A DNA stretch of 64,000 bases. Origin: a virus. The position numbers and the translations under genes are program-made. The stretch spans positions 68,402-132,401 of IMG/VR virus record IMGVR_UViG_3300029319_000005, one strand, 5' to 3'. Each line of letters opens with the position of its first letter. Within the stretch, counting starts at the first letter, position 1. Below are positions 8,801-64,000 of this stretch, piece by piece. Under the pieces are notes generated by a model. The model did no database searches, had not been told where the DNA came from, and worked only from the letters and a program-made list of their open reading frames with translations.

Positions 8801-11515
8801 CTTAGCGTCTGAATAAATACTGACAGAGCCGGTAAAATTAGTTACGCTAGCGCCTGCAAAAAGTCGTTTAGCTTGAGACATGAACCCTGTCCCATAAGCA
8901 TTGCTGATTGACTCTGTAACATGAAATTCATTTTTTACGATGTCTTGTACTGTATTGACGCCATAAAATTCAACAACGTATGTGTCTGAAACGCCTATCG
9001 TTCTATTATCTAGTGTTGACTGTGGATACTTTGAAGGCGCGACCTTGACCGCAAAAGTCCAGCTTGAGTTGTCATACACATCATAAAAGACATCGGTTTC
9101 CAGCTTTCCACTAGACAACAACGAACTAGATAATTGAAAAAATGCGTGTCTCGTATCTTTTACGCTCTTAACAGAGCGGACTTCAAAAGCCCAATCGTCT
9201 CCAGCAGCATTGTGTGCCCAAGTTGTATCAGCAGGCGTGTCCTGGCGCGCGGAGTGTGCGCCAAAAATAGAGGATGTTAAGGGGTAATTACCCTCAAACT
9301 CAACCATGTCCGGATCCGGTATATACGGAAATAGTACTTCACTCTCAAATGTTGATCCAAATCCATTAGCTTCTTGCTGTAGCGTAGGATATCCAGAAGC
9401 CGACAAATACGCAGTGGAATCCGTAATTAAGGAAGATGTTTGTTGATAGACGACCGCGCTGTTTGCATCTAACGAACTAAAATCTATGAAAGTCTTTTTA
9501 ATTGTTGAATCATAATATTCATCTTTAACATCAAAAGTTAGATTGTCGGCAAAAGTGTTAATTTTTATTAAATCTTCATTAATCCCAAAACAGTGCATCA
9601 AATTCCTAAGAGACTTTATGGTCCCCTTAGATTTCATTATTTGAGTCAAATTGTTGTAAATGTTCTTATATATTAAATTTTTAATATCATCCAGTGGCTG
9701 GGAATGGATCTTGTCTTCTCCCATTTGCAAGAACTTTTCTACTATTTCTGCATCTGCAAATAGGTTTTCAGTATTGAACCCGACTCCATCCAAAAGATTT
9801 CTACTAATAGATGATTCTTTATTTATCTCGCTTAAAGATCCGGATACATATCTAATATCTTTTATCTTATTTAATTCATCAATCATAATATGCAACTCAT
9901 CAAAATAGCTGCCTATTATTTGTGTTAGCTGTTCAAGAGTTGGGTTTGTCTCCGACTCTTCTCTTATCCAAGATGGTAATGAATTAAATATGGAAGCATT
10001 GTTAGTAAGATCGTGTAGTTTACCTTCTTTTATTTTTGTTTCTATAAGAGATTGGACTTGTGGATGTTTTTCATAAATTATTGGGTCTTTAAATTCTGCT
10101 GCCGAGGCGCTTGCCTCTACAATTGCAGAATTTGTTGATCTCATATCCGTCAATAGCGCGCTGCTGTTGCTATACCCTGTCCAAGTGCCGTTTGTTACTC
10201 TTCCGGAATAATCCAAAACAACAGCATCTACGCTTGCTGTCTGGGTTATCCCCTCGTTAAACTTATAATAAACTCCAAGATCTACGGCGTTCCCATCTTC
10301 CGCAGAGCCGCTATAATAATATTTTATGTCGTCGGTATTTGTGCCGCCACCAATCTGTCTTTTCCAATATCTCCCAATTTGTTCAGGAGTTCTCTCTTTT
10401 CTCCAGAATCGGAACTCATCTAGAGATCCGCTTAAGGCTCCGTAGCCTTGCGTCGCAGCGTGGGATCCAGAAGGAGAAGCAACTAGGGCACCAATTTGTG
10501 CTACCATAGTTCCCGTTATTGAAGAAATAGACGATCCTGTAATTATTTCTTGGTTTAAAGCTCCATCTACATACAGCGTGGCTCTCATGTTGCTTCCCGT
10601 ATTGGCGAAGCTAAGGGCATAATGGTGCCATGTTGAGCTTGTAACAGGAACATCCGTACCTATTGATATTAGTGTTTCTCCGCCAATCGTGGCAGGCTGT
10701 GGGTCAAAAACTCCTTGGGCATACTGTCCTGACCCGGACATCAAAGAAATGTACAATGAAGAACCAGATGGAACAGGATCGACACAAGTAACGACTTTTA
10801 GACGCCCATACCCAGGCTGCCCCGCGACATCAGCACCCCAAGAGCCACTACTCCAAAGATCAAAAATTACCTGTGTTGGTGATTCAACGCTCGAAGTGTA
10901 TGGCACTTTTCTAAGCCAGAATTCTACTGTGAGTCCGTCAGTTCCATTAAACTCAAGATTAGATATTCTATTAATGTTAGAGTCATAATAGTTTGGCAAA
11001 GAATTAATAGAAGAGCTTGGCACAACTTCGCCACTCAGAGTCTCTGTTCCTCTAAGCTTACTAGGATGTGGACCACCTTTTAGAAAAATATACTGAGGAT
11101 AGTCATTGTAGGCATACGGATGTGAGACACTAGTAAAATTGCCCGCTACAGTGCTCATCTCTCTAGACCCTAGAAAATTAATGTATCCATTTGTTCTAGG
11201 ATATTGTTCTTCAAAAATATATTTGTCGATCAAAAGAGAGTTTTGATCCCATTCCATCTTTTCTCTTAAAGAACCATCATAGGGATATTCTTTGTAAATA
11301 CGCTCTATTGAATCTTGGTAATATCTAGCAGCCAGGCCGTATCTAGCAAAGTTTTTAGGGTCAGAATAATCTACTTGAGGCAAGACTCTATTAGATTTTT
11401 TTAAATAAGTTGGCACAAAAGCGGAAGACTCCACTTCTTGCTCTAGGTCTTTTTTACTTTTTTTAGTCAATAGCTGACTAAACTTTTCTTTTTTAAAGAG
11501 ATCTTTTAAACTCAT
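2819..11515 (-). CDS. giant baseplate/tail structural protein with LamG domain, 2,898 aa
   Basis: One of two giant proteins in the window. A concanavalin-like LamG domain is visible at about residues 186-385: it opens LEFNGTDGLTVEFWLRK, has the WHHYALSF strand near 296 and the GSLDEFRFW strand near 363, the usual signs of this carbohydrate-binding jelly roll. A helical region at roughly 500-650 with YFDELHIMIDELNKIKDIRY resembles baseplate proteins that sit at the wedge periphery. The remaining part is long, Ser/Thr/Asn/Gly-rich and probably beta-structured. The ATG overlaps the stop of the DNRLRE-type gene (ATGA). It is likely a peripheral baseplate or adhesin component. The LamG domain suggests glycan binding, which is inference. 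Confidence 0.75.
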   Translation of the reverse strand: MSLKDLFKKEKFSQLLTKKSKKDLEQEVESSAFVPTYLKKSNRVLPQVDYSDPKNFARYGLAARYYQDSIERIYKEYPYDGSLREKMEWDQNSLLIDKYIFEEQYPRTNGYINFLGSREMSTVAGNFTSVSHPYAYNDYPQYIFLKGGPHPSKLRGTETLSGEVVPSSSINSLPNYYDSNINRISNLEFNGTDGLTVEFWLRKVPYTSSVESPTQVIFDLWSSGSWGADVAGQPGYGRLKVVTCVDPVPSGSSLYISLMSGSGQYAQGVFDPQPATIGGETLISIGTDVPVTSSTWHHYALSFANTGSNMRATLYVDGALNQEIITGSSISSITGTMVAQIGALVASPSGSHAATQGYGALSGSLDEFRFWRKERTPEQIGRYWKRQIGGGTNTDDIKYYYSGSAEDGNAVDLGVYYKFNEGITQTASVDAVVLDYSGRVTNGTWTGYSNSSALLTDMRSTNSAIVEASASAAEFKDPIIYEKHPQVQSLIETKIKEGKLHDLTNNASIFNSLPSWIREESETNPTLEQLTQIIGSYFDELHIMIDELNKIKDIRYVSGSLSEINKESSISRNLLDGVGFNTENLFADAEIVEKFLQMGEDKIHSQPLDDIKNLIYKNIYNNLTQIMKSKGTIKSLRNLMHCFGINEDLIKINTFADNLTFDVKDEYYDSTIKKTFIDFSSLDANSAVVYQQTSSLITDSTAYLSASGYPTLQQEANGFGSTFESEVLFPYIPDPDMVEFEGNYPLTSSIFGAHSARQDTPADTTWAHNAAGDDWAFEVRSVKSVKDTRHAFFQLSSSLLSSGKLETDVFYDVYDNSSWTFAVKVAPSKYPQSTLDNRTIGVSDTYVVEFYGVNTVQDIVKNEFHVTESISNAYGTGFMSQAKRLFAGASVTNFTGSVSIYSDAKISSVKAWMSHLSNEEIKSHAIDASNYGTRQPANNAFVFQTGSTSNSGSTNVFIPKIKTLALDWNFELVTGSDAAGGFAVYDITSGSSDLKEEYGWLGNVVNLPNSGIGRGFLASTSSFVSVEYLEDSKKQLPELLYSEDMVSILSFDDDNLYRDQKPIKFITSIEKNMYHNLSEEIMNFFASVRDYGALIGRTEERYRQNYKRLAFLKQIFFERLGNTPDVEKFIDYFKWIDKALGDMILNLVPASSGVSRGIKTVIESHALERNKYRNKFPTIDSKFAEPASSGQLQPNLDTTSNDGNIAIPPLLVEQYEGFSAKPNAFLAGPKLNSPPSTDQDFHILWWKNKVDKTKYAKTGDAVLDVVRQKLFTVYQSGNQDLQNKPFVFNTSIKSKEIAGGVRMPTNKKGMSIASKVLSFASNKQFVINNSNVSDSTKTYIEEIIPTELLTKRKIVEVNIDNEPDAYLASGSDSVLPFAFYSASYEYDSGASLGGYLASLGVSLSSTQINFGNDFSNNEFETPLQGPFTERFVGGYQYRNVAPNKLDEAGNFNTAYNRPEGYNIVLASNQITVVPVDSINTNFARGTRIRLPGVKRPVNITNRPFYATSGSAITGNLNFTTPTRTMGNFERNYELVMTTGRDINNLWFKSGSTGLGGVSNQYPEVFTLTGNLNFALPDRATGSNKTVIAERFSSPGGKEVLTKGYLDPASETYSVYNQLNYRNSTVRTALNVSGALHSLLYGIQTGSFVSGDAYSPLVTASYHKVNRNARKNVTVIETSYMPPVNPTVLSGAIFDNDNVTHQIPQSDRNYNWITSSMFDINSAPYGFANPIGFVSSSSGEISQFKFLSASQTSVDSHVVDFVGLNTLINAPLLTGTNAVSTASLNTSIASLNSSDLLNALLLHQNGPYGFVSWKQINNSTNPLVRNMVKNNRISTFAAMNDFFAKSKYKWSGASGKEKVSHNSATNVRQLTSFTEPPVITSFKPITHKVATKDYDGNEANFDIKHSYANNISKFASVDLNNALGAENNKPTQPYDKLYKIYTNKDLGDDNPISELLSLEYKETIYPRSVNAYLGKIRGRQNYTELPGTGENGFDRINRRTFWRDSLFQRERTAGTALNSQGYTVYNNQSRILSVWPVDCGDVSEIDGLNGFPIDLSDINGAVGELVHYPFVNPTGSVDDGIFPSGFNAPMYGYHVSASAAMYRRAINHKVYADAYIRPPGYRTNVLAGKNPWFNSYEDYSEDIRRIAKDYAVLPEFRISDHMDFYLNNQSSSFIGTNNKFLSLDGAAHTSSANGEFADFNDNFFDIYSNSDFMKYFDVVQEDHINEEIGKPSRIKMTCRGVKKLLPYNGFYPSTRTLQLASLLSQSLGPYLSGSNENSNNPDTERLNSINRLFVAPGILFNSIKSAVAVDFPFYTEAKTGSTAYPNGASSIQQQLIGYSDDYDMRFPFEGLVDIVRHLPPTIKDVTAFGTSSATQTNIFLGEPSATGSYPYANWMFEKKPNFELAMHNFLGETVKFFLKDQQLTNFYSAQESQFKTMKSGSTYGMKVNMYKTNDMKLSENTDASAIRGRARGALYGPPMSSSYHSESNSVLSGFDDPAYAPHTPPYFYGLSQATLTFQCFETKKYTLEEIIAGVTASYTNANPALTGQYNDNVTRNKMEISASMNLFGTTRVQKVNYSTGLGPDGNYLPNTFETPSDSSFDVWSIGTKWECPALNFSASYSVDEGVGVWAGYGKIPDDTTGIFTGLSNVSDQESLLEVVGFQTSKERVGKIAESKKISEAIVAIPFVDSPELTGLDTVEYLGKSFFKIDTDEYRYQTELKISKGIAVEKGSTEDGADNIQQTSITDMYEKMQKYVIPPQLDFTDKDLDKDPFAMYIFEFNHVLDQRDLADIWQGVMPKISITAEKQDVTIEHAMNKHEFFGGMPLPPETRWMVFKVKRRAENNYFKITADSKDDDRFKFLFKSSEKDYKHSYNWPYDFFSLVELGQIEAAVEIEGDKKE

Positions 11516-15374: not shown

Positions 15375-18300
15375 TTAACATGGTTCATTAGAGTGATACC
15401 CTGCGGTAAGAGTTCCATCAAGAGGATCAAGTTTTCCGGTAACCGAAAGTCCCCAATAAGTCATTCCTAAAGGAGTGATGTGGAAAGGATTAGTAATTCC
15501 AGCAGCAAACAGCACTTCTTGTGGAATTAAAGGATAGGGGAGAAGCGATAAAACAATTGGGAACATCGCTTGTGAGCTTCTCCAGTATCTCATTGTTTTA
15601 TTATCGTAAAGAGATGATGCATCTCCACCAAAAGCAGCCTCTCCTGCTTTAATAGTTGTTTTTACGCCTTGATAGACAGTATCCTTAATTGCCTTCGCTG
15701 TTGCGATCGTTGGGTCTGAAATTTCAGCTAGGCCTTTTAGTATCATTAAACTAGCTTGTAAAATTACCTGTTGATCAATACCTGTAGCATCGACCGGGTC
15801 TGCGGTAGAAAAGGCGTATTGTTCTTCATAAGATCTAAATTCTGCCGCAGAATCATATGATAGTGGCAAGCTAAATGCTGTCATTGTATTTAATAAATCA
15901 CTTTTTGTTTGGCTAAACATCTGACTAAGCCCTGGTTTCGCCGTATCAACTATAGTGTTATAAGTGCCTAATGCACTCAGAGTAGCTAGGTCTTCAACAG
16001 GTAGAGAATAGCCAAAAAGCACTTGAAATTTTTGTTTTTTTAATAATTCTTCTTTGAGTTTAAAAACTTCTTCATAAACTTTATTGTAATCATACAAAAT
16101 ATTCCCATCTGGGCCTAGTTGCAATGCAAAGGAAAGAGGAATATCTTTATCTTCAACTCCATAAATGTCACTAATCTTAATCTTGCTTTCCGCTATCGGT
16201 ATTTTATATATTTCTTTATTTATAGTTTGTACTTCTTGTTCATCATCAACAGTCACTTGCTTTGTTTCTCTTTCAATTATTTCATATGATTTTTTATATA
16301 AAGGAGGATAGTTCCTACCGGGAGAGCCAGCAAATGCTCGGCGGGCCTGAATCATATCTGATAGGCTATTTTTTAAAAAGACACCGTCTGATGGAATCGA
16401 CTCTTCAGATTCTTTCGACACTGGTAAAACATAGCTGAGCCTGACACCAGCCTTCAAGGGCTCGTAATAGGTCGTATGGGGTTCATCAGCAAAAAATTCG
16501 CTACCCTTTACTGCTGGCATGAATTTAATTACTTTGTCGCGCAAATTGTTAATAATTTTAGCTCTTTTATCTCTCAATTCTTCAATCTTATCATACCAAT
16601 TCTTTAATAGCTTATAAGCAATTGTTTCTTCGCCTGAGATTCTTTCGTATTCATTCGTTTCAGGATTCAAATAATAAAGAGTTCTCGAATTGTACATATT
16701 ATTATGGTTAGTTTTAGACATGCCTGTCGCGAAAAGAGCCGCATCGTTCATGTGAACCGCAAACTTGTCTATAGACATGGGCATATTAAGATACTCACCT
16801 TCGACTCCAGGGGCACCCGCTCTTACTAATGGAATATCAACAACTGGCGTGTAAACAGCTTCTTCCCCTGCTTCAAAATCTTGTCCGTATAAAGTGTCAT
16901 AATTAATTATAGACATAAATTTATTGAGCGTCGCTCCAATTTCCTGGTCATAGTCGAGGCCGCGAGAGCCAATGTCTATATTATTTGTCATGGAATTTAT
17001 TTCATAAAATTTGCCACTTGGCGTAGGTCTTCCAATCCTAATTGATTTTAATTGTAGCGATTCATCAGAGTTCATAAAGTTATCTACAGCATCGCTAATG
17101 TATAAAATACTCCAATCATTCATATGGCTTTTAGGAAGCGTGTCATAATTTTGGATTTGATTCAGATAGAATTTCATGTTTAACAAAAGAGTGTCTAATG
17201 TGGCTCGTCTTCTACCATGATCTTCTGTCCAAATTTCTTTAAACTGGTTTAAAAAATATAAAACGCTTTTCGGCCCAGGATTATTTTCATCACTTAATCC
17301 ACTAAATCCGAATAAATTGTGAACACCCTCCATGATAGCGAGACCTGCGTCTTTTGCTCCAACCCAGAACCCACTATCCCAATCAGGATCCCAATCTTTA
17401 TGACTACCAAGTGATTCATTTAACAGTGGTGCGTAATTTTTTGATTTAATACCCCAAATTCTAGAATATTGTTGCGGCTTATAGGAAGCAGCAAGTATGT
17501 TCCTCTCAGGAAGCGCATTTTGTGTCACATCATCAGTAAGCACCTTAAACCCTACCCTAGAGGTCTCTTCGTGTAAATAATCTGGGTGATATCGTTTGCT
17601 CATATGTTCACTCACGCTATCTTGGATTATATCGTCTGGGTCCATGTTAACATTTTCACCCATCCAATCGAGTGATTTAAAATTAGTTACACTAGAGTTT
17701 GGTTGATGAATCGTTGTCTTGCCGAACAATAAAGATGGCTTTACAAACAGCGGCGCTTCGTTAATATCTGTGCCAAATAAACCGCTGAAGACGGCTATCT
17801 GTGAACTGAATTCATAATTTACATCTTCATAATCTAACAAAGGAAGAGAAGTCAAATCTTTTATATTCTTTTTTAAATTTTTCGTTGTTATTTGTTTTGG
17901 GAATATTATTTCCACGTCTGGATTAGAGAACTGTCTCCAAGTTAACCGTGAAACTGCTGAATTACCTTTTTTTAGGGTAGCGTCTATTTCTCGCTCAACA
18001 AGCTCATAGGGGTAATAGTTGAATCCTTGTATACAACTCGACCATTTTACTAGGTTGGCACCAATGCTTTTATCAGCGAAAAGGCCATAAAAAGTAAGAC
18101 CTTTTAGCACATGGTCAAAGTGCCAATAGAGTTCTTCAGCGTTAAGATTAAAAACAATCTCATTAACATCTACATATGATGTAGCTAGATTAGAAGAAAT
18201 TTGTAATTGCTCGCCATTAGTGGCGGTTAAAATATTTAAATCATAAACAGCAGTACCATCTGCAATACCTTTTAACTCGGCTATTTGGCTAATTCCTTTT

Positions 18301-21300
18301 GACTCTCCAAAAGGTAGTTCAATCGTAGGATAGATAGTATCAAAAATTTTATCCCACTCTTCTCTTTCTGGCGTTCCCTCCTCCGCTTTTGGTATAGCAT
18401 ATTGTAAATTTAAGAAATTTAAAAGAGATTCTGATGCGTCTTGCACATTTGAAAAATCTGCGTTTCTAATAAATTCTTTTAAATCTTTTTCAATAGGAAA
18501 TAATGCTAGATCTTCACTATGTTTATTTTCCATATATAAAATCAATCTAGGAAACAAAGATGACTTTAGTGACAAGCGCCACTTTCCTTGTTCCGAATCG
18601 TAAATCAATTGTCTTATATGAAATCTTTTATCCCAATCAGACCACCCAGGAGACGACATACCTTCGTAAATCTTAGCAAAAACAGCATAGCAATCTTCCG
18701 ACGTTATTGGGTTATCGATATCACCTTTACCTAAAACAATTTTGTCTTGATTTTCATAAGCAGTATTATCCCAGACATTCCAAGTAAATTTTGATTCATA
18801 TTCAACGTAGTATTTCATTGAATTTAAATATTTTTGTATATACAGAACGTTAAGCCATGATTTTTGTAAATAAGTGTCAACCACTGAAAAAGACGCCGGG
18901 GCGTGGATTAAATTGGTTCCTTGATTAGGAGAGTAGGGAGCAGCGCCATCAGTCCAATCTAATGATTCTCCAGTATAAGGAACAAAATTTGTAAGCAATA
19001 AATCTGTTTTAAACTGCTCAAAATCAGTTCCTTGTTTTTTAAGCATTACTTGATATATCGAGATGATAGAATCGAATAAGGCACTTTCTTTATCTTTTAA
19101 AGAAACAATATCAAGCGCACTCCATTTGCTCCAATCGGTAGCACTCAAATCCGCTTCAAATTTAACAAAGCTGTTAGGAGTGTACCTTACGACAGATCTT
19201 TTTGAATTATTGATACTATCTCCTCCAATATAAAAAGAGAAATTAGCACCTTTCTTTGCCTTAGATGTGTTTGGATCAACAAGCCTATGAGCACCAAGGG
19301 GAACGTGTGGAAGTCCATCAGTCTTCGCTAGATCCCCTATTGTGGCAATTGATTTAAACACTCGAACATTCCCATCCGAATCTATATTATTTATATTTTT
19401 AAAGTTAGAGTCTTGGCCTGTAAGATTCAACAATTTTTTGGGAATCGCTGTTGGCCTATATCTAAACTGTTTCCAGTCTTCAAAAATTTCAAACAATTCT
19501 TTATCAATTGCAGACAATTCAGAAAAACCTTCATTAAGATTATTGGTTACTGTAGCCAGTGAATAAAAATCATCTAGCCCTACATAGCCATTAAATAAAG
19601 GTGCTGCTCCATCAATCTCTAAAAAGTCTTTCACATAGTCAAAAGATTGATCGCTTATTTGTCCATATATTCCTTGGGAAACTGCCTCTTCCGCCGATAG
19701 GTTTGAAAACATAGGATTTGAATTAAAATTAACCTTTTTAGCACTTGTTTTAATGGGAGGTATATTTTTCAACTTCGGCTGATTATTGCCGATATTAAGC
19801 TTGGCCTTAACCTCTATGAACTGTTCTAAAACAAATCCTCCATCTTTAAAATATCTTTGATCAATATTATTTTTTAATATTTGCTTTTCTATAGAAACAA
19901 TCCTTCCAAGCTCATTGTTATAAAAATTTGGTGGTACATCAAACTTTTCAAAATCAACTTCAAGAGTAGCGAGCATATCATTTAAATCAATAGTCCCCTT
20001 TTGCGAAGCCTGCGACAGCACTTCTAATAATTCATCATTTTTTGGACCATTATAGGCATAGCTTAGATATCTTGCGATATCCAAAGCTTGATTAGCAGGG
20101 TCCTCAAACATACTAACAAACGTAGGAACGTTTAAGACCTCTGGATAAACCGTTCTTCCCGCAATCTTAAGGTTATCATCAGTCAAAGCCTTGTTTTTTA
20201 AATCCGGCTGTACAACTCCGTATGTTTGTACGACTGGCGTGTCTAATATTCTACGGAAAAGGCTGTCAGATACTTCTCCAAACTTTTCAACATCAATATC
20301 TAACTCAGAGACTGTCTGGATGTTCTCTTTAACCTTATCTGAGACTTCGTACAGTGTCTTTTCTAAAAGCAATTTTAAAGCATCAGTGTTTGTCATTTCA
20401 ATGGCTTCTTCTTGAGTTAAAATGTCATATGAAGCTTGTGCCATTAGACTTAAAATATCGTCCGCGCCGTCTTCGACTTCTGCACAAAATAAACTAAATA
20501 TAAAGCCCATATAGATTTCTTTGTTCACACTGTTTAGGCCAATCTCAGAAAAATAAAATATAGACGGAAGAAATTTTTCATATATTAGGACTCTCATAAA
20601 AGTTTTAGTCAGTCCTGCCATGATCGCTCTTTGCAATGCTGCTTGCTCATCAAGTCCTTGACAAATAAAGTTCTTTCTGATCGTTTCCATAGATGCCGTT
20701 AAAGAGGCCAGGTCCATAAGATCAACTTGCTTTGTAGGACAAAGCGGATCATCAAACAGAGTCATAGTTAAAATTCTGTTCGAGTCTAAGAATGGTGAAT
20801 ATAAAGATTTTTTAGAAAACCTTCCAGCGAGTGTGTCTAAAGCAGTCGAATAGTGGGCTCGCATGGACGCTCTGAACTGTGCCTCAAATTGCTCATTAAT
20901 TTGACCTAAAATAGGTTTCCAACTGTCTGTCATGACCTGAGAAAACCTTTCTGCTTGGGACGACGGCTGAAACTGTCCCTCTATCCCCACCGCATAGGGG
21001 TCCGGATAAGCGTGAGTTTTTGAAAGAGCCTTCATGGCTTGTTCAAGTTGTGCGCTTGGATTAGGGCTTTTTATTCTCAAAGACAAGGTTTCATTTTGAT
21101 TATCTATTTCTATAGAATGCAAGCCTGTAATGTCTATTAGATACTGCGAGGCTCCGTCAGGCGACAATCCAGAATAAATTTTATTTTTAAGAATTATTTC
21201 TTTATCATATTCCAGATTATTAACAAAATCATTATTTTTTATGTTTTGAGCATTCGTCTTCTTTGTTAAAGATAAAGCAGCTACTGCTCTGTTTTCTTTT

Positions 21301-24245
21301 AATTCACTAAAACGATCAATGCCGTCCAATGATTCTATAAATTCTAATCCCGCAGCAAATCCAGAGGTGTTAAATAATCTTCTTAATTTTGCCATGGGAT
21401 CGATAGTATTAAATCTAACTTCTTGTTTAAAATCGTTAGAAATGACCTCTACTAAGGTGTTATCTTCATCTTTTAAAAGATTTCTAAAATCTACTAAAAG
21501 CTCAACATTTTTCTGTGAAGCTCCTCCTTTGTTTGCGCTCATAGAAGGCACTAGCACTTTGTCATCAAGCTCTATAAAGTTGGTAGTAATGTTTAATTTA
21601 GAAATTGCATCGCTATCAAACAAAAATACAGGAAAAGCATTCAATTCAACCGTAAACTTTGTCTTAATTGAATCAAAGGCACTCTGATAGGCGCTTTTAT
21701 TCATAAAATCGCCAGCCGGATCAGGAATTTTTAACAACTCACACGGCTGTAAAACAAACTCTGGGTCGAATGCCAGAGCGCTTTCAGGATTTTTATCTGG
21801 CAGTCCGCCAATAATTTCATCTAAAAGACCGTCATCATAATTTGAATATTTGTCTTTCATTTGCTGTTTAAAGTCAGCACAAATTTCGGCGCTTGACATC
21901 CTAGCCATTTCATCTATTTTTTCATCTAATAGTGATAAGTTACAATCTTCTCGACCCATAGACGCTAATCCAGATTCGACAGCAGCCTTTTCGGACCTGA
22001 TCCCTAGTTGTTGGTTAAGTCCTCTTGCTATCGCTTCAATTACAGAGTTATTAGCGTTCCCTTGCAAGCAATCTCTCATTTCCAAAGGAGTAGTAGTGTT
22101 GGTAACAATTTTCGCTAATTTTTCGATTTCTTTTTTAGTGCGTAGTAAGTTTGCAGACTTCGGAGATCTTTCCATTGATTTTGTAATAACATGGTCTGCA
22201 AACTTTAGAAGCGCATCATCTTTATTTGTTAAAAAGTCTCCAAGGTCTGCGGCCCCCTTCTTAAACTGATCGCCTACACCTTCAACATTACAAGAAGCGA
22301 TCATTATCAGCATTTGTTTAAAAAAATCAACAATTGCTCGTTCTACGGTCTCTTTTATAACTCCTTCAATATTGTTAGTAAAATCACCCCAAAAATCACC
22401 AATTGGAGTGGTTTTTTTGAAAGCAGGCATTATCCTAGTATTTCCTAGAGTTACCAAAAATTTGTCAATCCTGTCAAGAACATCAACATTTGGAGTGCCA
22501 TATCTATCAGCACAAGTTAATCCTAGTATTAAAAGGTCTCTAACTGTCAACCTTTTCACAATCAAGTTTTCTATATCTTTAATTGTTTTAATTCTAGAAA
22601 GAAGCCTGCCGGAACTGATCTGCGCTACGGTTGAATCTCTAATAACGTGGCTGGGCCTTATTTTAGCATTGCCAGGATAACTTAACCAGGGCGCATCATA
22701 TTGTTCATTTAAAGATGAAAAGTTAAAGCCATCCGATAAAAGAGACCCATATGCCTCATGTAGGCCAGAGGCAGCGATAGACGCAACCACTCCTCCGGCA
22801 ACATCGCCAGTCACAAACAAGCCTTTTATATTGGCATCTGCTCCCGCCTCGGCAATACCAGCTAATGAGTTTATTGCGTCCTCTCTGTCAAAAGGAGCAT
22901 TTGTCACTTGATCATAAAGTTTTGAAATATCGTGTTTTACTTGTGATAAAATAGCCTTTTCTTTTTCAACATCCTCAGAACCTTTGTATAGCGCATCTGC
23001 TTCATCAAATACTTTCTCTATTTTTTGTAGATTTTCTATACTAATGTCTTTTGGATAGTGATAGGCCTCCAAAAATGGCATTAAATCAGTATAATCAGCA
23101 CCCCCTCCATCTAGAAAACCAGAAGTAACGTCGCTAATAGGATTAGAAGAATCAATTATTTCATTAATATTTCTAATGTAGTTAACGAAAGTTGGGTAAT
23201 ATTCTGCTTCAATTGTGCTTTTAGTTCTACCTATGGATGTATCTAAAAACTGGTTGTTACCTAGTGACTCCTCGCTGCCCTCTAAATTTAGCTCTGCTGT
23301 TATTTGTGCTTCAAACTCTGACTCGCCAACCCTAATAGCAGCCGCTGGTAAATTTTTGATAAAACTAAATCCAAAGTACTGTTTTTCAAACCCTAATCTA
23401 GAAAGTGCTTCGTCGCTGTTTAAAGAAGACTCTCTAGGATTTTGCTCTACTAGTCCATAAACCTCTTCCATTAAGTTAACAGCCTGCTTTTCGCTAGAGT
23501 CTGGAATTTCCACTAAGTTTCTAGCTTCAGCCCTAAAAGATTCAAGCCCTCTAGAATCCGGAAAAGTTATACATAGAATAGGAACCAACCCTTCCAGCCA
23601 CGACACCGGCCCTTTAGTACTTCCGGCTATTTCATATAAACCCTGTTGGTTCACTTCGCTCGCTTGTTTTTGGGAAGATTTTTTCTCTTCATAAAATTCT
23701 TTCATGTCTGCTACTAACGCATCTTTCCATGCGTCAATATTTTCTATGATATATTTTTCTTTATAAAGATCGACTTTAATTTTATCTGCCGCTTCAACTA
23801 TTGCTGTTAAAACAGCCTTTAACTTTCTTAGCTTAGCCACGAAAATAGAATTGTCGCTATAAGTTTCGTCAAATTCTAGTATCACAAAATCAGTAGCCCC
23901 ATTAAGAAGGGCGCTGCTAGGAGCATCTCTTCTAACTGCCCCTAAAGAACTTAATACAACATCAGATATCAAAACACTAACAGAAATCGTTGCTGCTGCC
24001 GGATCATACTTAAAGTAATCTCCCTTAATAGCTCTAGGTAACGAAATTAAATTAGCATCATTTGTGAGTTCCGAATATGCAGAGGGCGATAGCAGATACT
24101 CAGTGTCTAGCAATTCAACCGCTCTAGTACGAATTAATTTTTGTACTTCGTTTGTAAACAGTTTTTCATTTTTATCAGCAACAAAGTCCTTGCCGCTAGA
24201 CCAGTCTATTACTATTGGAATTTGTAAATATTTTTTTGTAGCCAC
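15375..24245 (-). CDS. giant virion-associated protein, 2,956 aa, unknown function
   Basis: The longest gene of the window. It uses a GTG start preceded by AAGGA. I recognise no named domain. The sequence mixes helical acidic stretches and shorter beta regions, with no transmembrane run, no long coiled coil and no Gly/Ala-rich repeats. That argues against it being the tape-measure protein even though its length would allow it. It lies immediately upstream of gp25 and gp6 and downstream of the spike/hub-like genes, so it is probably a baseplate component or an internal tail protein. Short Cys-containing segments are scattered through it (for example near residue 790). Function unassigned. Confidence 0.7.
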   Translation of the reverse strand: MATKKYLQIPIVIDWSSGKDFVADKNEKLFTNEVQKLIRTRAVELLDTEYLLSPSAYSELTNDANLISLPRAIKGDYFKYDPAAATISVSVLISDVVLSSLGAVRRDAPSSALLNGATDFVILEFDETYSDNSIFVAKLRKLKAVLTAIVEAADKIKVDLYKEKYIIENIDAWKDALVADMKEFYEEKKSSQKQASEVNQQGLYEIAGSTKGPVSWLEGLVPILCITFPDSRGLESFRAEARNLVEIPDSSEKQAVNLMEEVYGLVEQNPRESSLNSDEALSRLGFEKQYFGFSFIKNLPAAAIRVGESEFEAQITAELNLEGSEESLGNNQFLDTSIGRTKSTIEAEYYPTFVNYIRNINEIIDSSNPISDVTSGFLDGGGADYTDLMPFLEAYHYPKDISIENLQKIEKVFDEADALYKGSEDVEKEKAILSQVKHDISKLYDQVTNAPFDREDAINSLAGIAEAGADANIKGLFVTGDVAGGVVASIAASGLHEAYGSLLSDGFNFSSLNEQYDAPWLSYPGNAKIRPSHVIRDSTVAQISSGRLLSRIKTIKDIENLIVKRLTVRDLLILGLTCADRYGTPNVDVLDRIDKFLVTLGNTRIMPAFKKTTPIGDFWGDFTNNIEGVIKETVERAIVDFFKQMLIMIASCNVEGVGDQFKKGAADLGDFLTNKDDALLKFADHVITKSMERSPKSANLLRTKKEIEKLAKIVTNTTTPLEMRDCLQGNANNSVIEAIARGLNQQLGIRSEKAAVESGLASMGREDCNLSLLDEKIDEMARMSSAEICADFKQQMKDKYSNYDDGLLDEIIGGLPDKNPESALAFDPEFVLQPCELLKIPDPAGDFMNKSAYQSAFDSIKTKFTVELNAFPVFLFDSDAISKLNITTNFIELDDKVLVPSMSANKGGASQKNVELLVDFRNLLKDEDNTLVEVISNDFKQEVRFNTIDPMAKLRRLFNTSGFAAGLEFIESLDGIDRFSELKENRAVAALSLTKKTNAQNIKNNDFVNNLEYDKEIILKNKIYSGLSPDGASQYLIDITGLHSIEIDNQNETLSLRIKSPNPSAQLEQAMKALSKTHAYPDPYAVGIEGQFQPSSQAERFSQVMTDSWKPILGQINEQFEAQFRASMRAHYSTALDTLAGRFSKKSLYSPFLDSNRILTMTLFDDPLCPTKQVDLMDLASLTASMETIRKNFICQGLDEQAALQRAIMAGLTKTFMRVLIYEKFLPSIFYFSEIGLNSVNKEIYMGFIFSLFCAEVEDGADDILSLMAQASYDILTQEEAIEMTNTDALKLLLEKTLYEVSDKVKENIQTVSELDIDVEKFGEVSDSLFRRILDTPVVQTYGVVQPDLKNKALTDDNLKIAGRTVYPEVLNVPTFVSMFEDPANQALDIARYLSYAYNGPKNDELLEVLSQASQKGTIDLNDMLATLEVDFEKFDVPPNFYNNELGRIVSIEKQILKNNIDQRYFKDGGFVLEQFIEVKAKLNIGNNQPKLKNIPPIKTSAKKVNFNSNPMFSNLSAEEAVSQGIYGQISDQSFDYVKDFLEIDGAAPLFNGYVGLDDFYSLATVTNNLNEGFSELSAIDKELFEIFEDWKQFRYRPTAIPKKLLNLTGQDSNFKNINNIDSDGNVRVFKSIATIGDLAKTDGLPHVPLGAHRLVDPNTSKAKKGANFSFYIGGDSINNSKRSVVRYTPNSFVKFEADLSATDWSKWSALDIVSLKDKESALFDSIISIYQVMLKKQGTDFEQFKTDLLLTNFVPYTGESLDWTDGAAPYSPNQGTNLIHAPASFSVVDTYLQKSWLNVLYIQKYLNSMKYYVEYESKFTWNVWDNTAYENQDKIVLGKGDIDNPITSEDCYAVFAKIYEGMSSPGWSDWDKRFHIRQLIYDSEQGKWRLSLKSSLFPRLILYMENKHSEDLALFPIEKDLKEFIRNADFSNVQDASESLLNFLNLQYAIPKAEEGTPEREEWDKIFDTIYPTIELPFGESKGISQIAELKGIADGTAVYDLNILTATNGEQLQISSNLATSYVDVNEIVFNLNAEELYWHFDHVLKGLTFYGLFADKSIGANLVKWSSCIQGFNYYPYELVEREIDATLKKGNSAVSRLTWRQFSNPDVEIIFPKQITTKNLKKNIKDLTSLPLLDYEDVNYEFSSQIAVFSGLFGTDINEAPLFVKPSLLFGKTTIHQPNSSVTNFKSLDWMGENVNMDPDDIIQDSVSEHMSKRYHPDYLHEETSRVGFKVLTDDVTQNALPERNILAASYKPQQYSRIWGIKSKNYAPLLNESLGSHKDWDPDWDSGFWVGAKDAGLAIMEGVHNLFGFSGLSDENNPGPKSVLYFLNQFKEIWTEDHGRRRATLDTLLLNMKFYLNQIQNYDTLPKSHMNDWSILYISDAVDNFMNSDESLQLKSIRIGRPTPSGKFYEINSMTNNIDIGSRGLDYDQEIGATLNKFMSIINYDTLYGQDFEAGEEAVYTPVVDIPLVRAGAPGVEGEYLNMPMSIDKFAVHMNDAALFATGMSKTNHNNMYNSRTLYYLNPETNEYERISGEETIAYKLLKNWYDKIEELRDKRAKIINNLRDKVIKFMPAVKGSEFFADEPHTTYYEPLKAGVRLSYVLPVSKESEESIPSDGVFLKNSLSDMIQARRAFAGSPGRNYPPLYKKSYEIIERETKQVTVDDEQEVQTINKEIYKIPIAESKIKISDIYGVEDKDIPLSFALQLGPDGNILYDYNKVYEEVFKLKEELLKKQKFQVLFGYSLPVEDLATLSALGTYNTIVDTAKPGLSQMFSQTKSDLLNTMTAFSLPLSYDSAAEFRSYEEQYAFSTADPVDATGIDQQVILQASLMILKGLAEISDPTIATAKAIKDTVYQGVKTTIKAGEAAFGGDASSLYDNKTMRYWRSSQAMFPIVLSLLPYPLIPQEVLFAAGITNPFHITPLGMTYWGLSVTGKLDPLDGTLTAGYHSNEPC

Positions 24246-52711: not shown

Positions 52712-52712
<1 letters not shown>
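52685..52712 (-). promoter_or_regulatory. sigma70-type promoter next to tRNA-Thr
   Basis: On the minus strand TTGACT (52712 down to 52707), 16 bases, then a perfect TATAAT (52690 down to 52685). The first base of the -35 is the discriminator base of the tRNA gene. Transcription would begin near 52678 and read the helical-protein/esterase/lipoprotein/SpoU operon. The best promoter match I found in the window. Confidence 0.6.
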
Positions 52713-52785
<73 letters not shown>

Positions 52786-52790
52786 ATCTA

Positions 52791-53408
52791 CTAGATTATT
52801 TCGTCTATGAGTCCATACTTAAGACAGGTTTTTGCATCCCACCAGAGATCATGTTTTAGGATCTCGCCAAGCTGCTTTTTAGGAATTTTGGTATTTTCCT
52901 CGTATATTTTTTTAATTGTTTTCATCAAAAGATCACAATTTTGTAAGTCATCTTTCATGTCTTCATACTTGCCCCACATCCCGGAAGACAATTGGTGTAT
53001 TAGCATAAAAGAATGTTCACGCATGTATCTCTTGTCGCCAACAACACTCATAAGAGTCGCTGCCGAGGCTGCACATCCATCGATAATAGTATTTACAGGA
53101 ACCTTGCAATTCTTGATATAGTCCACGCTGGAAAAGCCCGCAAAAACACTGCCACCGTAAGAATTAATGTGCAAGTTTATATGGATGTCCGGAACGTCCA
53201 ATATATTAGCACTGTTGCTGTATCTGTTGGATAAGGTGACTATGTACTTATTTAAGTACAGATTGTTCGGTCGAGTTACTTCAGAATAGAAGTAAATATT
53301 GTTATTCTCCCACTCAATCTTGTTGTTTGGTCCAAACCCTGTTCCTTTACTTGTAGTAGTTGTGGTTTGGGGTTTATTTGCTTTTGAAAACCAATAGTCT
53401 TCGTTCAA
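52791..53408 (-). CDS. clpP: ClpP-like serine protease
   Basis: 205 aa, TTG start with AGGAGAA upstream. The ClpP fold is seen in DIHINLHINSYGGSVFAGFS (about 74-93), the nucleophile Ser in IIDGCAASAATLMS (Ser about 115), His in FMLIHQLSSG (about 138), and Asp in LWWDAKTCLKYGLID (about 191). The N-terminal 45 residues are extra. In phages ClpP-type proteases may act in head maturation or with host Clp ATPases. It is the last gene before the tRNA and has its own promoter. Confidence 0.85.
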   Translation of the reverse strand: MNEDYWFSKANKPQTTTTTSKGTGFGPNNKIEWENNNIYFYSEVTRPNNLYLNKYIVTLSNRYSNSANILDVPDIHINLHINSYGGSVFAGFSSVDYIKNCKVPVNTIIDGCAASAATLMSVVGDKRYMREHSFMLIHQLSSGMWGKYEDMKDDLQNCDLLMKTIKKIYEENTKIPKKQLGEILKHDLWWDAKTCLKYGLIDEII

Positions 53409-60343: not shown

Positions 60344-61968
60344 TATTCATTTACTCCCTTTGGTAATCCTAAAAGTATCTTCGTTTCTTTAGAACCGCCA
60401 ATATCCCTTATATACCAACCATTATAATTAGGATATTTACCTTCAGGATGACCACCTAGCCATGTTATTTCTTTACCTAACACTCTTTCGACATCTTCTT
60501 GACTATCCACAAACGGGACACCGTACTTGGTTATCATAATGTGAGCAATTGCTTTTGACATCTCAGAAAAATATCCAGGAGTATTCAATAATTGCGCTGA
60601 CTTATCTATATAAGCAGTTATAGCTTCTTTGCTTCCATCGTGGCCCGCAACAGTCATCTTTTTGCCTGCTGGCTTGTTAGAAGACACGCGCAAAGCGTCT
60701 GGCTCCGGATCAGAGTCTATATCAGTTGCAATGTATTCATCGTATTTGCCCGGTAAATCCGATGCAGATCTTATATTCGAATGTCCACCAATTTTCTTAT
60801 AGGCATTATTTATAAGATTATATAACTCATCGGCTAGGTTTATTTCGCCGCCACGATCTCTAGCAGCAGAAGCAATATCTTCGATAGGTATATCAAGCCA
60901 CTGGCCTTTGGGGGCGTCGTAGTCTGCCCATTTATTTTCATTCAAATTAACTTCTCTTTGAAATAGAAAGTATACAGGCACCTGTTCAAGACCAAGTTCC
61001 TGTGCAATTTGATGTCTATGGTTCCCCTCGCCAATTTTGGCTACACCATTCGATCCAAATTGAATAAGCAAGGGCTCACGTATACCGTTTTCTTTTATGT
61101 CCGCCCTTAACTCTTCGTATTTGCCAGTTTTTATTCTACGTAGCCGGTCCTTAACGTACTCTCTGTAAGGGGCGAGTTCTTCAGTTGGGTAATAAACGGG
61201 ATCACTGGAATCGACGTTACTTTCCATGATAGTACCTCGATTTTCAACCCAACATTTTAAAAGCTGTTCAATGGAAGGAGGATTATTTTTATTAATTGTA
61301 TAATACGCTTTGCCATAAGGGTCTATTTCGGGACAAACAAAGTTATCTCTTCCGACATCATCGTATGTAAACGATTCATTCAAAAACTTCCGCCAATCTA
61401 CTCTCCCTACTAGTTGTAAGATCTTGGCAACGTTTTTGTGACTGTTTGGCTGAGCAATAATTTTATAAGCCTTTAAGTCAGCATTTGCCTTTTGGGCCAA
61501 AAATGCCCTGTGGTTCCCATCAGTAACTTCACCATTTTCATCAATAGTAATGGGAGGAAATTTGGAAAAATCAACTTCGCGTGGGTCGGCTGGATTATTT
61601 CTAAAATAGAGCGCATCTTTCCCGGCGGCTTTATCTTTGATGTATTGTTGATATTTTCTCTCTCGTTCTTTTACCGCCTCATCTGATATTTTATAATCAC
61701 TTGGACTTACTAAAAACGGGCCTTCTAAAATATATTTGTCTATGCCATGTATAAATCGTTTCAATTCTGGGTATGAGTCACGACCTTCGTTGTAATGATA
61801 ATCTAATAATCGCTTTTGCTTTGGGAACATGCCTATTAATAGTTGGTGGATTTCGTTAGCTTTTTTGGGATCTCGCAAAGCATTACCTACATTTTCCCAA
61901 TCACTAGTTTTCATCGAATGGATCTCTTCATTCAAAAACTTCCGCCACTCTGTTAGTAGTTTTTTCAT
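60343..61968 (-). CDS. three-domain protein: tandem ParB-like domains plus C-terminal domain, with internal W-R motif
   Basis: 541 aa. The leader MKKLLTEWRKFLNEE (LNE 12-14) precedes a first ParB/Srx-like domain (about 60-180; ITIDENGEVTDGNHRAFLAQ). The motif DWRKFLNES recurs at 191-199 (LNE 196-198), followed by a second ParB-like domain (about 240-335; GVAKIGEGNHRHQIAQELGL). A third LNE (342-344) precedes the C-terminal domain (345-541; WADYDAPKGQWLDI, MTVAGHDGSKEAI, GKYPNYNGWYIRDIGG), which I recall from marine phage proteins; it might be acetyltransferase-like but this is not certain. Three domains, each preceded by LNE. Confidence 0.65.
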   Translation of the reverse strand: MKKLLTEWRKFLNEEIHSMKTSDWENVGNALRDPKKANEIHQLLIGMFPKQKRLLDYHYNEGRDSYPELKRFIHGIDKYILEGPFLVSPSDYKISDEAVKERERKYQQYIKDKAAGKDALYFRNNPADPREVDFSKFPPITIDENGEVTDGNHRAFLAQKANADLKAYKIIAQPNSHKNVAKILQLVGRVDWRKFLNESFTYDDVGRDNFVCPEIDPYGKAYYTINKNNPPSIEQLLKCWVENRGTIMESNVDSSDPVYYPTEELAPYREYVKDRLRRIKTGKYEELRADIKENGIREPLLIQFGSNGVAKIGEGNHRHQIAQELGLEQVPVYFLFQREVNLNENKWADYDAPKGQWLDIPIEDIASAARDRGGEINLADELYNLINNAYKKIGGHSNIRSASDLPGKYDEYIATDIDSDPEPDALRVSSNKPAGKKMTVAGHDGSKEAITAYIDKSAQLLNTPGYFSEMSKAIAHIMITKYGVPFVDSQEDVERVLGKEITWLGGHPEGKYPNYNGWYIRDIGGSKETKILLGLPKGVNE

Positions 61969-61970
61969 TC
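61931..61970. repeat. 40-bp direct repeat, copy 2
   Basis: Identical over 40 bases to 57997-58036; it covers the start of the tandem ParB-like gene. A partial third copy (21 identical bases: positions about 61375-61395 against 61927-61947) lies inside the same gene and encodes the internal RKFLNE, consistent with fusion or recombination between leader sequences. Confidence 0.9.
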
Positions 61971-62384
61971 GTATACCACGCTCATTCCCATAGAAGTCTC
62001 TGTTGACTTGCCAGAGTTTCTACCAAGCGCGTGCAAGACTTCAATTGGATCATATCCAACTATTATTCTATCGTTAACAACAAATAGTGGAATAGCGTTT
62101 AATGTGCCTTCGTATCCTATCTGTTTTGCGATCAACTTAAGTTGTTCTTTAACAGCCTTATTTTCAAAATCTTTTTCAATAAAAGTAACATCGTTATCAA
62201 TTAAAAATTTCTTTGCTGTTTTACACCATCCACACCAAGGAGCAGAATAAAGTATGACAGTATTTTTTGGGATATTTATCTTTTGAACTGTTACTATAAC
62301 GTTCTGTCTTAGAGGTATAGAACTTTCCGGAATACAGGAAGAGGTTAGAAATAAGGAGAGTATTGCTAAAATTATTTTTTTCAA
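61965..62384 (-). CDS. glutaredoxin/thioredoxin-like lipoprotein
   Basis: 139 aa; TTG start preceded by GAGGG. Lipoprotein signal MKKIILAILSLFLTSSCIPE with lipobox LTSSC (Cys about 17). Thioredoxin-fold domain: VILYSAPWCGWCKTAKKFL with the CGWC redox pair at 51-54, and a cis-Pro strand AIPLFVVNDRIIVGYDP (about 97-113), typical of glutaredoxins. A lipid-anchored glutaredoxin is unusual; it would act in the periplasm. Overlaps the ParB-like gene by four bases. Confidence 0.75.
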   Translation of the reverse strand: MKKIILAILSLFLTSSCIPESSIPLRQNVIVTVQKINIPKNTVILYSAPWCGWCKTAKKFLIDNDVTFIEKDFENKAVKEQLKLIAKQIGYEGTLNAIPLFVVNDRIIVGYDPIEVLHALGRNSGKSTETSMGMSVVYE

Positions 62385-62387
62385 TTA

Positions 62388-63587
62388 TTAACCCTCTTTA
62401 TGTTTAAAATAGTTAACTTGTTTTTCTCTCTTTTCCGCGCCCTTTTTTGAATCGTAGCAACCGAGATTACGACCTGTTTTTGCAATCAAACAATACTTTC
62501 CATCTTTCTTTCTAATGACTTCAAATAAGCCTCTTATTATAGCCTCTCTTAACACTTGACGTATTGTAATAGAGCTAGATTCTCTTAAGAGACTCTCAAA
62601 CATCTCAGAGGGATGGTGTTGTCGCGAAATATCTTTACCAGTGATTTTACCCATCCACTGATCCCTAAATTTTCCTGCCAAATCTGCGTCGCTTTTTGAT
62701 GCTCTTTTGGAGTAGTCATTTGGAATTTTAAACTTTTTACCTCCGGGCATTATCACTTCAAGGTCACCCTCCAGGTTAATTTTTTTAGCCACAATCTCGA
62801 CCCAAGTGTCCCAAAGAGACTTCGATACGCTAGCTTCAGTAGTTTTATTCATAGCAGCAATTTGCCTTAAGAACTCGACATACTTCTCAGCCATCTTAAC
62901 TCCGCCTTTTGTAAGCTGATATAAGTTAGAGCTTGTGTCCAGCTTCTTTCCAGCGGTTTTAAAGCCGACACGACCGTCTTTGTCTGTTTTTATTAATTTA
63001 CCTTCAGGATCAAGACCTTTATAAATATTAAGATTGATGCTGTCTATGCATCCTAGTCTACCTATTATTAGCTGTGAAGCAAAGGCTGCTTTTGGCAAGC
63101 CAAGACCCGGAACTCTTAAAAACTTAAGATAAGTATTGAACATTGCCTCTTCTTTTTCGATGCTTCCGGATTTAGCATTATTATATTTGTTTATGTCTGA
63201 CATTATAGAGGAATACATTTTTCCTCGATTGTTCCAAATATAATCGATTGCTCTCTTCCTGAATCCTAGTATTAACATTTTTATAGACTGCGGGAAGTCT
63301 TGGAATTCTTCTCCGGTTAATAGGCCATCATTTTGTTTGATGTATTTCATCAAGATAGGAAATCTTGGAACAACTTCATACCATCTCTGTTGCTGAGTTG
63401 CGATAACGAAAATTAACATTTCTGCTAAATTTTCTGGGCTCTCTTGTGCATAAGAGTTGATGGCGGGATTGTAAATACAAAAGCCACTGTCACCAATGTC
63501 TGCAACATTTAAGACTAGCGGATCCGGTTCGTCGAGTCTGTCTTCTTCTTTTAAGAACCGCTTCCAAGATTCAAGTAGTAATTTCAT
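62388..63587 (-). CDS. HhH-glycosylase-like protein with N-terminal W-R motif and C-terminal module
   Basis: 399 aa. Leader MKLLLESWKRFLKEED (LKE 12-14). A central helical region has FLRVPGLGLPKAAFASQLII then GRLGCIDSINLNIY (about 156-190), like the helix-hairpin-helix of HhH-GPD DNA glycosylases (L-P-G-(V/L)-G-x-K-T-A), with a possible catalytic Asp in CIDS. At the end, LRE (334-336) precedes ITIRQVLREAIIRGLFEVIR, a leader-like helix of the second type, and the module KYCLIAKTGRNLGCYDSKKG common in marine phages. It may act on DNA; no lysine proven. Confidence 0.6.
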   Translation of the reverse strand: MKLLLESWKRFLKEEDRLDEPDPLVLNVADIGDSGFCIYNPAINSYAQESPENLAEMLIFVIATQQQRWYEVVPRFPILMKYIKQNDGLLTGEEFQDFPQSIKMLILGFRKRAIDYIWNNRGKMYSSIMSDINKYNNAKSGSIEKEEAMFNTYLKFLRVPGLGLPKAAFASQLIIGRLGCIDSINLNIYKGLDPEGKLIKTDKDGRVGFKTAGKKLDTSSNLYQLTKGGVKMAEKYVEFLRQIAAMNKTTEASVSKSLWDTWVEIVAKKINLEGDLEVIMPGGKKFKIPNDYSKRASKSDADLAGKFRDQWMGKITGKDISRQHHPSEMFESLLRESSSITIRQVLREAIIRGLFEVIRKKDGKYCLIAKTGRNLGCYDSKKGAEKREKQVNYFKHKEG

Positions 63588-63626: not shown

Positions 63627-63936
63627 TGGTGGAGGTGTCGGGAGTCGAACCCGAGTCCTAAATATATCGAATAAAACGTCGTTCACAAGGTTAGTTGGTT
63701 TTTGGCTCCAACAAGCACAAGACACAAATTCTTTACTATTGGGTAAGGCTAGTAAAGAAGCCTTTATTTGCAGCTTTGGTTAACAAGGTTGCTGCCACCC
63801 CGTGGTTATGCCGCTAGGGCGTAATCAAAAGCAACGTTATCGTTGGCAATTAAAGTTTTGAGTGTTTTTACTGTGCCGCACTCACACAGCCTTGCACATT
63901 CTATTTTCAATACCCAGTCGATACCAATTCACCCCC
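63627..63936 (-). ncRNA. ssrA: tmRNA (ssrA), one-piece
   Basis: 310 bases. The 5' end GGGGGTG pairs with CACCTCC before the encoded ACCA 3' end (one G-T wobble). T-arm TCGGGTTCGACTCCCGA and a D-like loop GAATTGGTATCGACTGGG are standard. Pseudoknot 1 is seen as CTGTG/CACAG interlocked with GAGTG/CACTC. The tag reading frame (63847 down to 63806) encodes ANDNVAFDYALAA then TAA, ending in the ALAA degron recognised by ClpXP. With SmpB, tmRNA rescues stalled ribosomes and tags their products. CCA is encoded. Phage tmRNAs are known but uncommon. Confidence 0.95.
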
Positions 63937-63941
63937 GTGTT

Positions 63942-64000
63942 TTAGCACTTGCCGGAACAATTTGCACACGAGCAGCAGCCGCAACAGCAGCAGCAATGGC
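63942..64000 (-). CDS. C-terminal fragment of a Cys-rich protein
   Basis: Frame entering from the right edge and ending in TAA at 63942: HCCCCCGCCSCANCSGKC, with 11 Cys in 18 residues. The stop lies five bases before the tmRNA 5' end. Such Cys-rich tails occur in small metal-binding peptides. The other two frames give Ala-rich or Leu-rich sequences, so the frame is not certain; the neat stop just before the RNA gene favours this one. Confidence 0.4.
   Translation of the reverse strand, partial: HCCCCCGCCSCANCSGKC

Follow-up and report, generated by a model that had tools for sequence, protein, structure and literature searches.

Close to one end of the window, by which we mean the whole stretch of 64,000 nucleotides that was analysed, lies a gene resembling bacterial ssrA. 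It raises the question of whether a phage carries a working tmRNA of its own, and what it would gain from ribosome rescue during infection.

The locus encodes a complete one-piece tmRNA

ARAGORN and the Rfam family RF00023 both identified a single complete one-piece (ssrA-like) tmRNA at positions 63627-63936, on the minus strand. In a search of the whole window, the RF00023 covariance model (Rfam 15) gave 125.9 bits with an E-value of 7.9e-49, over positions 1-374 of the 374 of the model. The cut-off of this family is 47 bits, and the doubt that a weak score would have cast on the first-pass annotation, which had proposed the gene, is thereby removed. No other tmRNA match was found in the 147,376-base record. 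The landmarks of the gene are the following.

63930-63936, minus strand: 5′ half of the acceptor stem, including G3 of the G3-U pair (9-sequence alignment)
63860-63889, minus strand: pseudoknot 1 (PK1), CTGTG/CACAG and GAGTG/CACTC (H-type search; compensatory changes)
63806-63847, minus strand: tag frame from the GCC resume codon to the TAA stop, encoding ANDNVAFDYALAA (ARAGORN)
63638-63654, minus strand: T-arm (helix 5, paired in 100% of cells)
63627-63637, minus strand: 3′ half of the acceptor stem, discriminator A and encoded CCA
63627-63936, minus strand: the whole one-piece tmRNA (ARAGORN and RF00023; sole match in the record)

The sequence holds the acceptor, the T-arm, the G3-U identity pair, the GCC resume codon, the TAA stop and the encoded CCA. 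The acceptor, T-arm, PK1, tag frame with stop and CCA end had been read from the letters in the first-pass annotation, and ARAGORN, RF00023 and the alignment place each of them at exact coordinates. ARAGORN located the coding part of the tag at positions 90-131 of the gene. Its codons, GCC AAC GAT AAC GTT GCT TTT GAT TAC GCC CTA GCG GCA TAA, specify ANDNVAFDYALAA, and the ALAA ending that had been announced for the tag is correct. In the middle of the RNA (the PK2-PK4 region), the Rfam alignment is uncertain, with low posterior digits, and the sequence diverges. Promoter-like sites upstream of the gene were at chance level (3 found against 2.4 expected).

Two other forms of tmRNA were considered. 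The model of permuted tmRNA, RF04321, also matches the 5′ half of the gene (60.2 bits), because the one-piece and permuted forms share that half. Its positions 1-61, which represent the 3′ tRNA part, gave no match upstream of the tmRNA; a two-piece gene was rejected on this ground and because the one-piece order is complete. The tag-less form of the DS6A type, reduced to the tRNA-like domain, was set aside because a tag is present. Elsewhere, the 484 kb uncultured phage LR756508 has a 112-nt tmRNA-like RNA lacking a tag frame (L238:1501-1612; 58.2 bits with RF00023), which resembles the DS6A type, and a second, longer tmRNA match at L236:1501-1947.

The tmRNA gene is resident in a phage genome

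The 147 kb record is that of a myovirus, with terminase, portal, T4-type capsid protein, tail sheath and tail fibre proteins. It also encodes a DNA polymerase III-type polymerase, a primase, a helicase and a ribonucleotide reductase. From the tmRNA to the far end, the record holds a NUDIX-like protein and other ORFs, mostly without match. Two neighbours of the tmRNA within the window are listed here.

63942-64000, continuing past the window end to 64043, minus strand: 3′ part of a 33-aa Cys-rich ORF (record positions 132343-132444; L006:4967-5068)
62388-63587, minus strand: 399-aa ORF starting 39 nt after the CCA; a 95% identical protein neighbours the tmRNA of another viral contig, L186

A 113-aa gene lies directly upstream of the tmRNA. 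Of eight related loci, four (L255, L256, L258 and L260) likewise have a relative of it upstream of their tmRNA, the proteins being as little as about 35% identical. The L257 contig ends at the position of this gene, while in L259, L261 and L262 the tmRNA is located elsewhere. Since phage genes run throughout the record and divergent viral contigs have the 113-aa gene and the tmRNA in common, the tmRNA is not a contamination. Judged by this gene content and context, it is a resident phage gene. The claim that it is phage-encoded therefore stands, and the bacterial contamination feared for the assembly does not materialise: terminase, portal, capsid and sheath genes share the record with the tmRNA, and its neighbourhood recurs in other viral contigs.

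No SmpB gene was detected in any of the 11 records searched (this one and 10 others), in a search that gave a match in 10 of 14 control genomes; the host must therefore supply SmpB. The phage is a large, apparently marine bacterial virus, its marine origin being what we take from the sample numbers of the contigs.

Several other features of the record deserve mention. A search with the 399-aa protein found 44 viral loci (L186-L229), and in 43 of them its last 40-60 residues recur while the remainder of the protein does not align. A glutaredoxin-like protein is encoded two genes downstream of the tmRNA (61965-62384, minus strand) and may be of interest beside the Cys-rich peptide. The minus strand also carries two very large ORFs of 2898 aa (2819-11515) and 2956 aa (15375-24245), and a 632-aa protein with MopE-type metal-binding repeats (PF11617) at L006:9539-11437.

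The fold is conserved across phage tmRNAs

Nine phage tmRNAs were aligned, L009 being omitted because its contig stops within the tmRNA and L167 because it is identical to L138. We counted 28 base pairs: seven in the acceptor, five in the T-stem, six at the end of helix 2, and five in each helix of PK1. Pairing was found in 95.2% of the 252 cells, and 13 pairs were changed on both sides. The covariation score over these pairs was 0.397, as compared with 0.151 in shuffles and at most 0.104 when the partners were slid. The third acceptor pair is G-U, and the CCA is encoded, in all nine sequences. Most of the unpaired cells of the PK1 helix come from an alignment offset in L011 and L138. An H-type pseudoknot of the PK1 type was found in all 11 phage tmRNAs examined, these two included, with stem sequences that differ. 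For the tmRNA studied here, only one of 200 dinucleotide shuffles gave as good a PK1; across the 11 tmRNAs, 0 to 4 of 200 did. The compensatory changes in PK1 and in the tRNA-like domain show that the predicted fold is maintained.

Most related phages appear to carry a tmRNA, probably mainly by descent

The set of related phages was gathered through the neighbouring Cys-rich gene, and not through the tmRNA. It comprises 27 long contigs, namely those with a length of at least about 88 kb among 83 loci with the Cys-block, except G008 and G010; the latter two had been searched earlier and both have a tmRNA. A one-piece tmRNA above the RF00023 cut-off was found in 21 of the 27. The six others, which may be fragments, gave none above the cut-off, which indicates that the tmRNA is not essential to every member. 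By comparison, tmRNA has been reported for 402 of 18,146 phages (PMC9004378).

The large terminase subunit (TerL) of the tmRNA phage matched 30 of 36 records, two of the 36 being cultured phages, with identities of 45-96%. For 23 phages, the distances between tmRNAs were correlated with those between TerL proteins (Spearman 0.545; none of 2000 permutations was as high). G018, whose TerL is in two pieces, and G037 and G015, which gave no TerL match, are omitted from this comparison. Over the 18 phages found only via the Cys-rich ORF, hence picked neither by tag nor by the 399-aa gene, the coefficient was 0.586. These correlations fit a mainly vertical descent of the tmRNA. The nearest neighbour by TerL is not the nearest by tmRNA for several phages, so that some transfer is possible.

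Among the 21 contigs, ARAGORN read 20 tags; all 20 start with AN and 18 end with LAA. Over 25 tags, 22 are distinct, with the AN start in 25 and the LAA end in 23, although the tag rules of ARAGORN may favour such ends. The middle of the tag varies while the divergence of the tmRNA tracks that of TerL. Most members of this related, uncultured phage group appear to carry a tmRNA, with varying tags.

The tag and the host

The exact tag ANDNVAFDYALAA was found in none of the contigs of the GTDB species genomes scanned, nor was the wider pattern ANDNVA[FY][DE]YA, in scans run without a positive control. This absence is compatible with a tag unlike that of the host. The exact tag was located in five other viral contigs. 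A plasmid search gave no match, the L007 tmRNA gave none against phages, and a full-text search for the tag retrieved no tmRNA or phage paper among the open-licence papers of PubMed Central. A comparison of eight tags, from which L160 was omitted for its shorter tag, counted 13 silent and four replacing changes; the count is biased, five of the eight having been chosen by identical tag and two by part of it. Many viral contigs (L012-L126) carry permuted, two-piece tmRNAs with the tags ANDNVAFALAA and ANDNVAFAGYALAA. These share the start of ANDNVAFDYALAA, a start that the search pattern had selected.

Judged by TerL and capsid protein, the closest cultured phages have Flavobacterium and Microcystis as hosts; Flavobacterium phage immuto is 45% identical in TerL and 48% in the major capsid protein. 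No tmRNA was found in immuto or RM378, and Mel-JY01 gave only a fragment of 17 nt. A Bacteroidota host, suggested by these relatives, was considered and is unlikely in view of the Shine-Dalgarno usage of the record: the motif precedes 55 of 107 ORFs, against 7 of 107 at the control position, whereas it precedes none of 16 ORFs in the immuto stretch (control, 5 of 16).

The first-pass annotation had also pointed to a ClpP-like protease in the same genome, and a protein of this family is indeed encoded.

52791-53408, minus strand: ClpP-like protein (Pfam PF00574, E-value 4.7e-29)

Its S, H and D triad positions, presumably the catalytic ones, align with those of bacterial ClpP. A separate T4-type prohead protease (phrog_207) is encoded beside the capsid gene (L004:5222-5863), so that the ClpP-like protein need not serve head maturation. 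The ClpP-like gene is adjoined by a tRNA-Thr gene (52712-52785).

A Cys-rich microprotein precedes the tmRNA

The 33-aa ORF upstream of the tmRNA, MKLLLHKLVNLFNNSHCCCCCGCCSCANCSGKC, has a strong Shine-Dalgarno sequence and stops 5 nt before the tmRNA. It belongs to a family of mostly 31-49 aa with the consensus MKxxLHRLxNLFNxxHCCCCCGCCxC. The DNA pattern of the Cys-block (HCCCCCGCC) was found at 83 viral loci, including L255, L256 and L266-L344; 81 hits in 80 loci were tabulated, L345-L347 being left out (L347 was part of the 27-contig search). Counting the tmRNA record, 66 distinct Cys-rich ORFs have a Shine-Dalgarno motif. Outside the pattern, the 65 anchored ORFs keep H in 62 cases, L in 60, F in 61 and N in 55, with varied codons, and this combination of conserved residues and varied codons argues for a real protein family.

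Nineteen members gave no match in Pfam or PHROG. A tblastn search of the phage collection returned nothing, although its low-complexity filter may mask such peptides, and a full-text search for the HCCCCCGCC peptide found no tmRNA or phage paper in open-licence PubMed Central. None of the sources searched appears to describe the family. A same-strand tmRNA was found no more than 1600 nt downstream in eight of the 53 loci having at least 1950 nt downstream, a set to which the tmRNA record and L256 had been added. It lies within 10 nt of the Cys-rich ORF in three of those eight and in the tmRNA record. The Cys-rich gene has other neighbours elsewhere, and its link with the tmRNA is not exclusive.

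Function of the phage tmRNA and alternative explanations

We consider it very probable that this is a working tmRNA gene belonging to the phage, likely keeping ribosomes recycling as mRNAs break. This reading is based on the completeness of the RNA, its conserved fold and PK1, the alanine identity pair, the open tag ending in LAA, and the long residence of the gene in the phage lineage. By established tmRNA biology, the transcript would be trimmed by RNase P and other nucleases of the host, charged by host alanyl-tRNA synthetase, and brought by host SmpB to ribosomes that have stalled on truncated mRNA. Alanine and ANDNVAFDYALAA would then be added to the stalled product, with termination at UAA, and the tagged product would be handed to ClpXP-type proteases of the host. 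What the phage most likely gains would be ribosome recycling during the mRNA breakage of infection, by means of tmRNA copies beyond host control.

The tag might instead be special, sending products to a fate other than that of the host tag, possibly via the ClpP-like protein. We regard this as unlikely: its absence from the scanned bacterial genomes, the strong differences between the tags of related phages (22 distinct among 25), and a ClpP-like protein with conserved triad positions in a genome that has a separate prohead protease would suit such a role, but the usual LAA end, which is read by host ClpXP, is kept, and the variable middle resembles drift as much as choice. Little credit can be given to a recent capture of a host ssrA gene, for instance by imprecise prophage excision, that would now be carried without selection. 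Divergent phages (L255, L256, L258 and L260) share the place after the 113-aa gene, the divergence of the tmRNA follows that of TerL, the compensatory changes speak for upkeep of the fold, and the tag is missing from the scanned GTDB species genomes; in favour of capture stand the facts that a tmRNA can be acquired whole, that phages integrate at ssrA, and that such an origin was proposed for the tmRNA of phage Melnitz (PMC9004378).

It is very improbable that the RNA acts as a decoy or inhibitor which titrates SmpB and blocks host trans-translation, as the tRNA-like domain without tag would do in phage DS6A. RNAs of this kind are on record for phages (PMC4131195 and PMC11915505), and a 112-nt tag-less form is present in LR756508; a decoy would, however, have no need of the full tag frame, PK1, stop and CCA that are kept here. 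As to contamination of the assembly by a bacterial ssrA, no supporting point was found, and the phage genes through the record and the neighbourhood common to other viral contigs make its likelihood negligible.

The working phage tmRNA that we favour resembles the standard bacterial one-piece ssrA (RF00023) in its full-length match, G3-U acceptor, T-arm, PK1, resume codon, LAA tag and CCA. It differs in being encoded by a phage without SmpB and in its tag, for which the scanned species genomes gave no match. At aligned positions, its 5′ half shares 64% identity with E. coli ssrA, as against 66-91% for other one-piece phage copies. Complete tmRNAs are described in mycobacteriophages Bxz1, Cali, Catera, Wildcat and others and in Bacillus phage G (PMC4131195). 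Like these, the present gene is a complete tmRNA carried by a large phage; unlike them, it belongs to another lineage, in which related long contigs carry it at the frequency given above against that among phages at large. Huge phages also carry tmRNA (PMC7162821), and a tmRNA database holds 79 phage sequences (PMC11915505). Marine phages such as Melnitz have a permuted two-piece tmRNA (PMC9004378); the record studied here shares with them an own ssrA and a similar 5′ domain, but its gene is in one piece. In Streptomyces phages of the Karimacvirus group (tag ANSNVASAYALAA, Enygma), 31 records match positions 64-144, that is PK1 and the tag start, with 77.8-82% identity; these matches cover only 20-26% of the query and concern a different phage family and host.

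Phage tmRNAs were already known, and the less expected part is the near-core status in an uncultivated group together with the linked microprotein. A wider picture, possible but doubtful as a whole, would be that of an uncultivated, apparently marine, Shine-Dalgarno-using myovirus lineage in which a one-piece tmRNA is near-core, long inherited vertically and independent of the host. The middle of its tag would drift while AN and LAA are kept, and in part of the lineage the tmRNA would be co-transcribed with the Cys-rich microprotein ending 5 to 15 nt upstream, the two acting jointly in the takeover of host translation. Taken alone, the gene is one further phage tmRNA; it gains weight from its presence in 21 of 27 contigs of a set gathered without a tmRNA search. 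This prevalence opens to comparative and laboratory tests the questions of why phages bring ribosome rescue with them and whether the tag matters.
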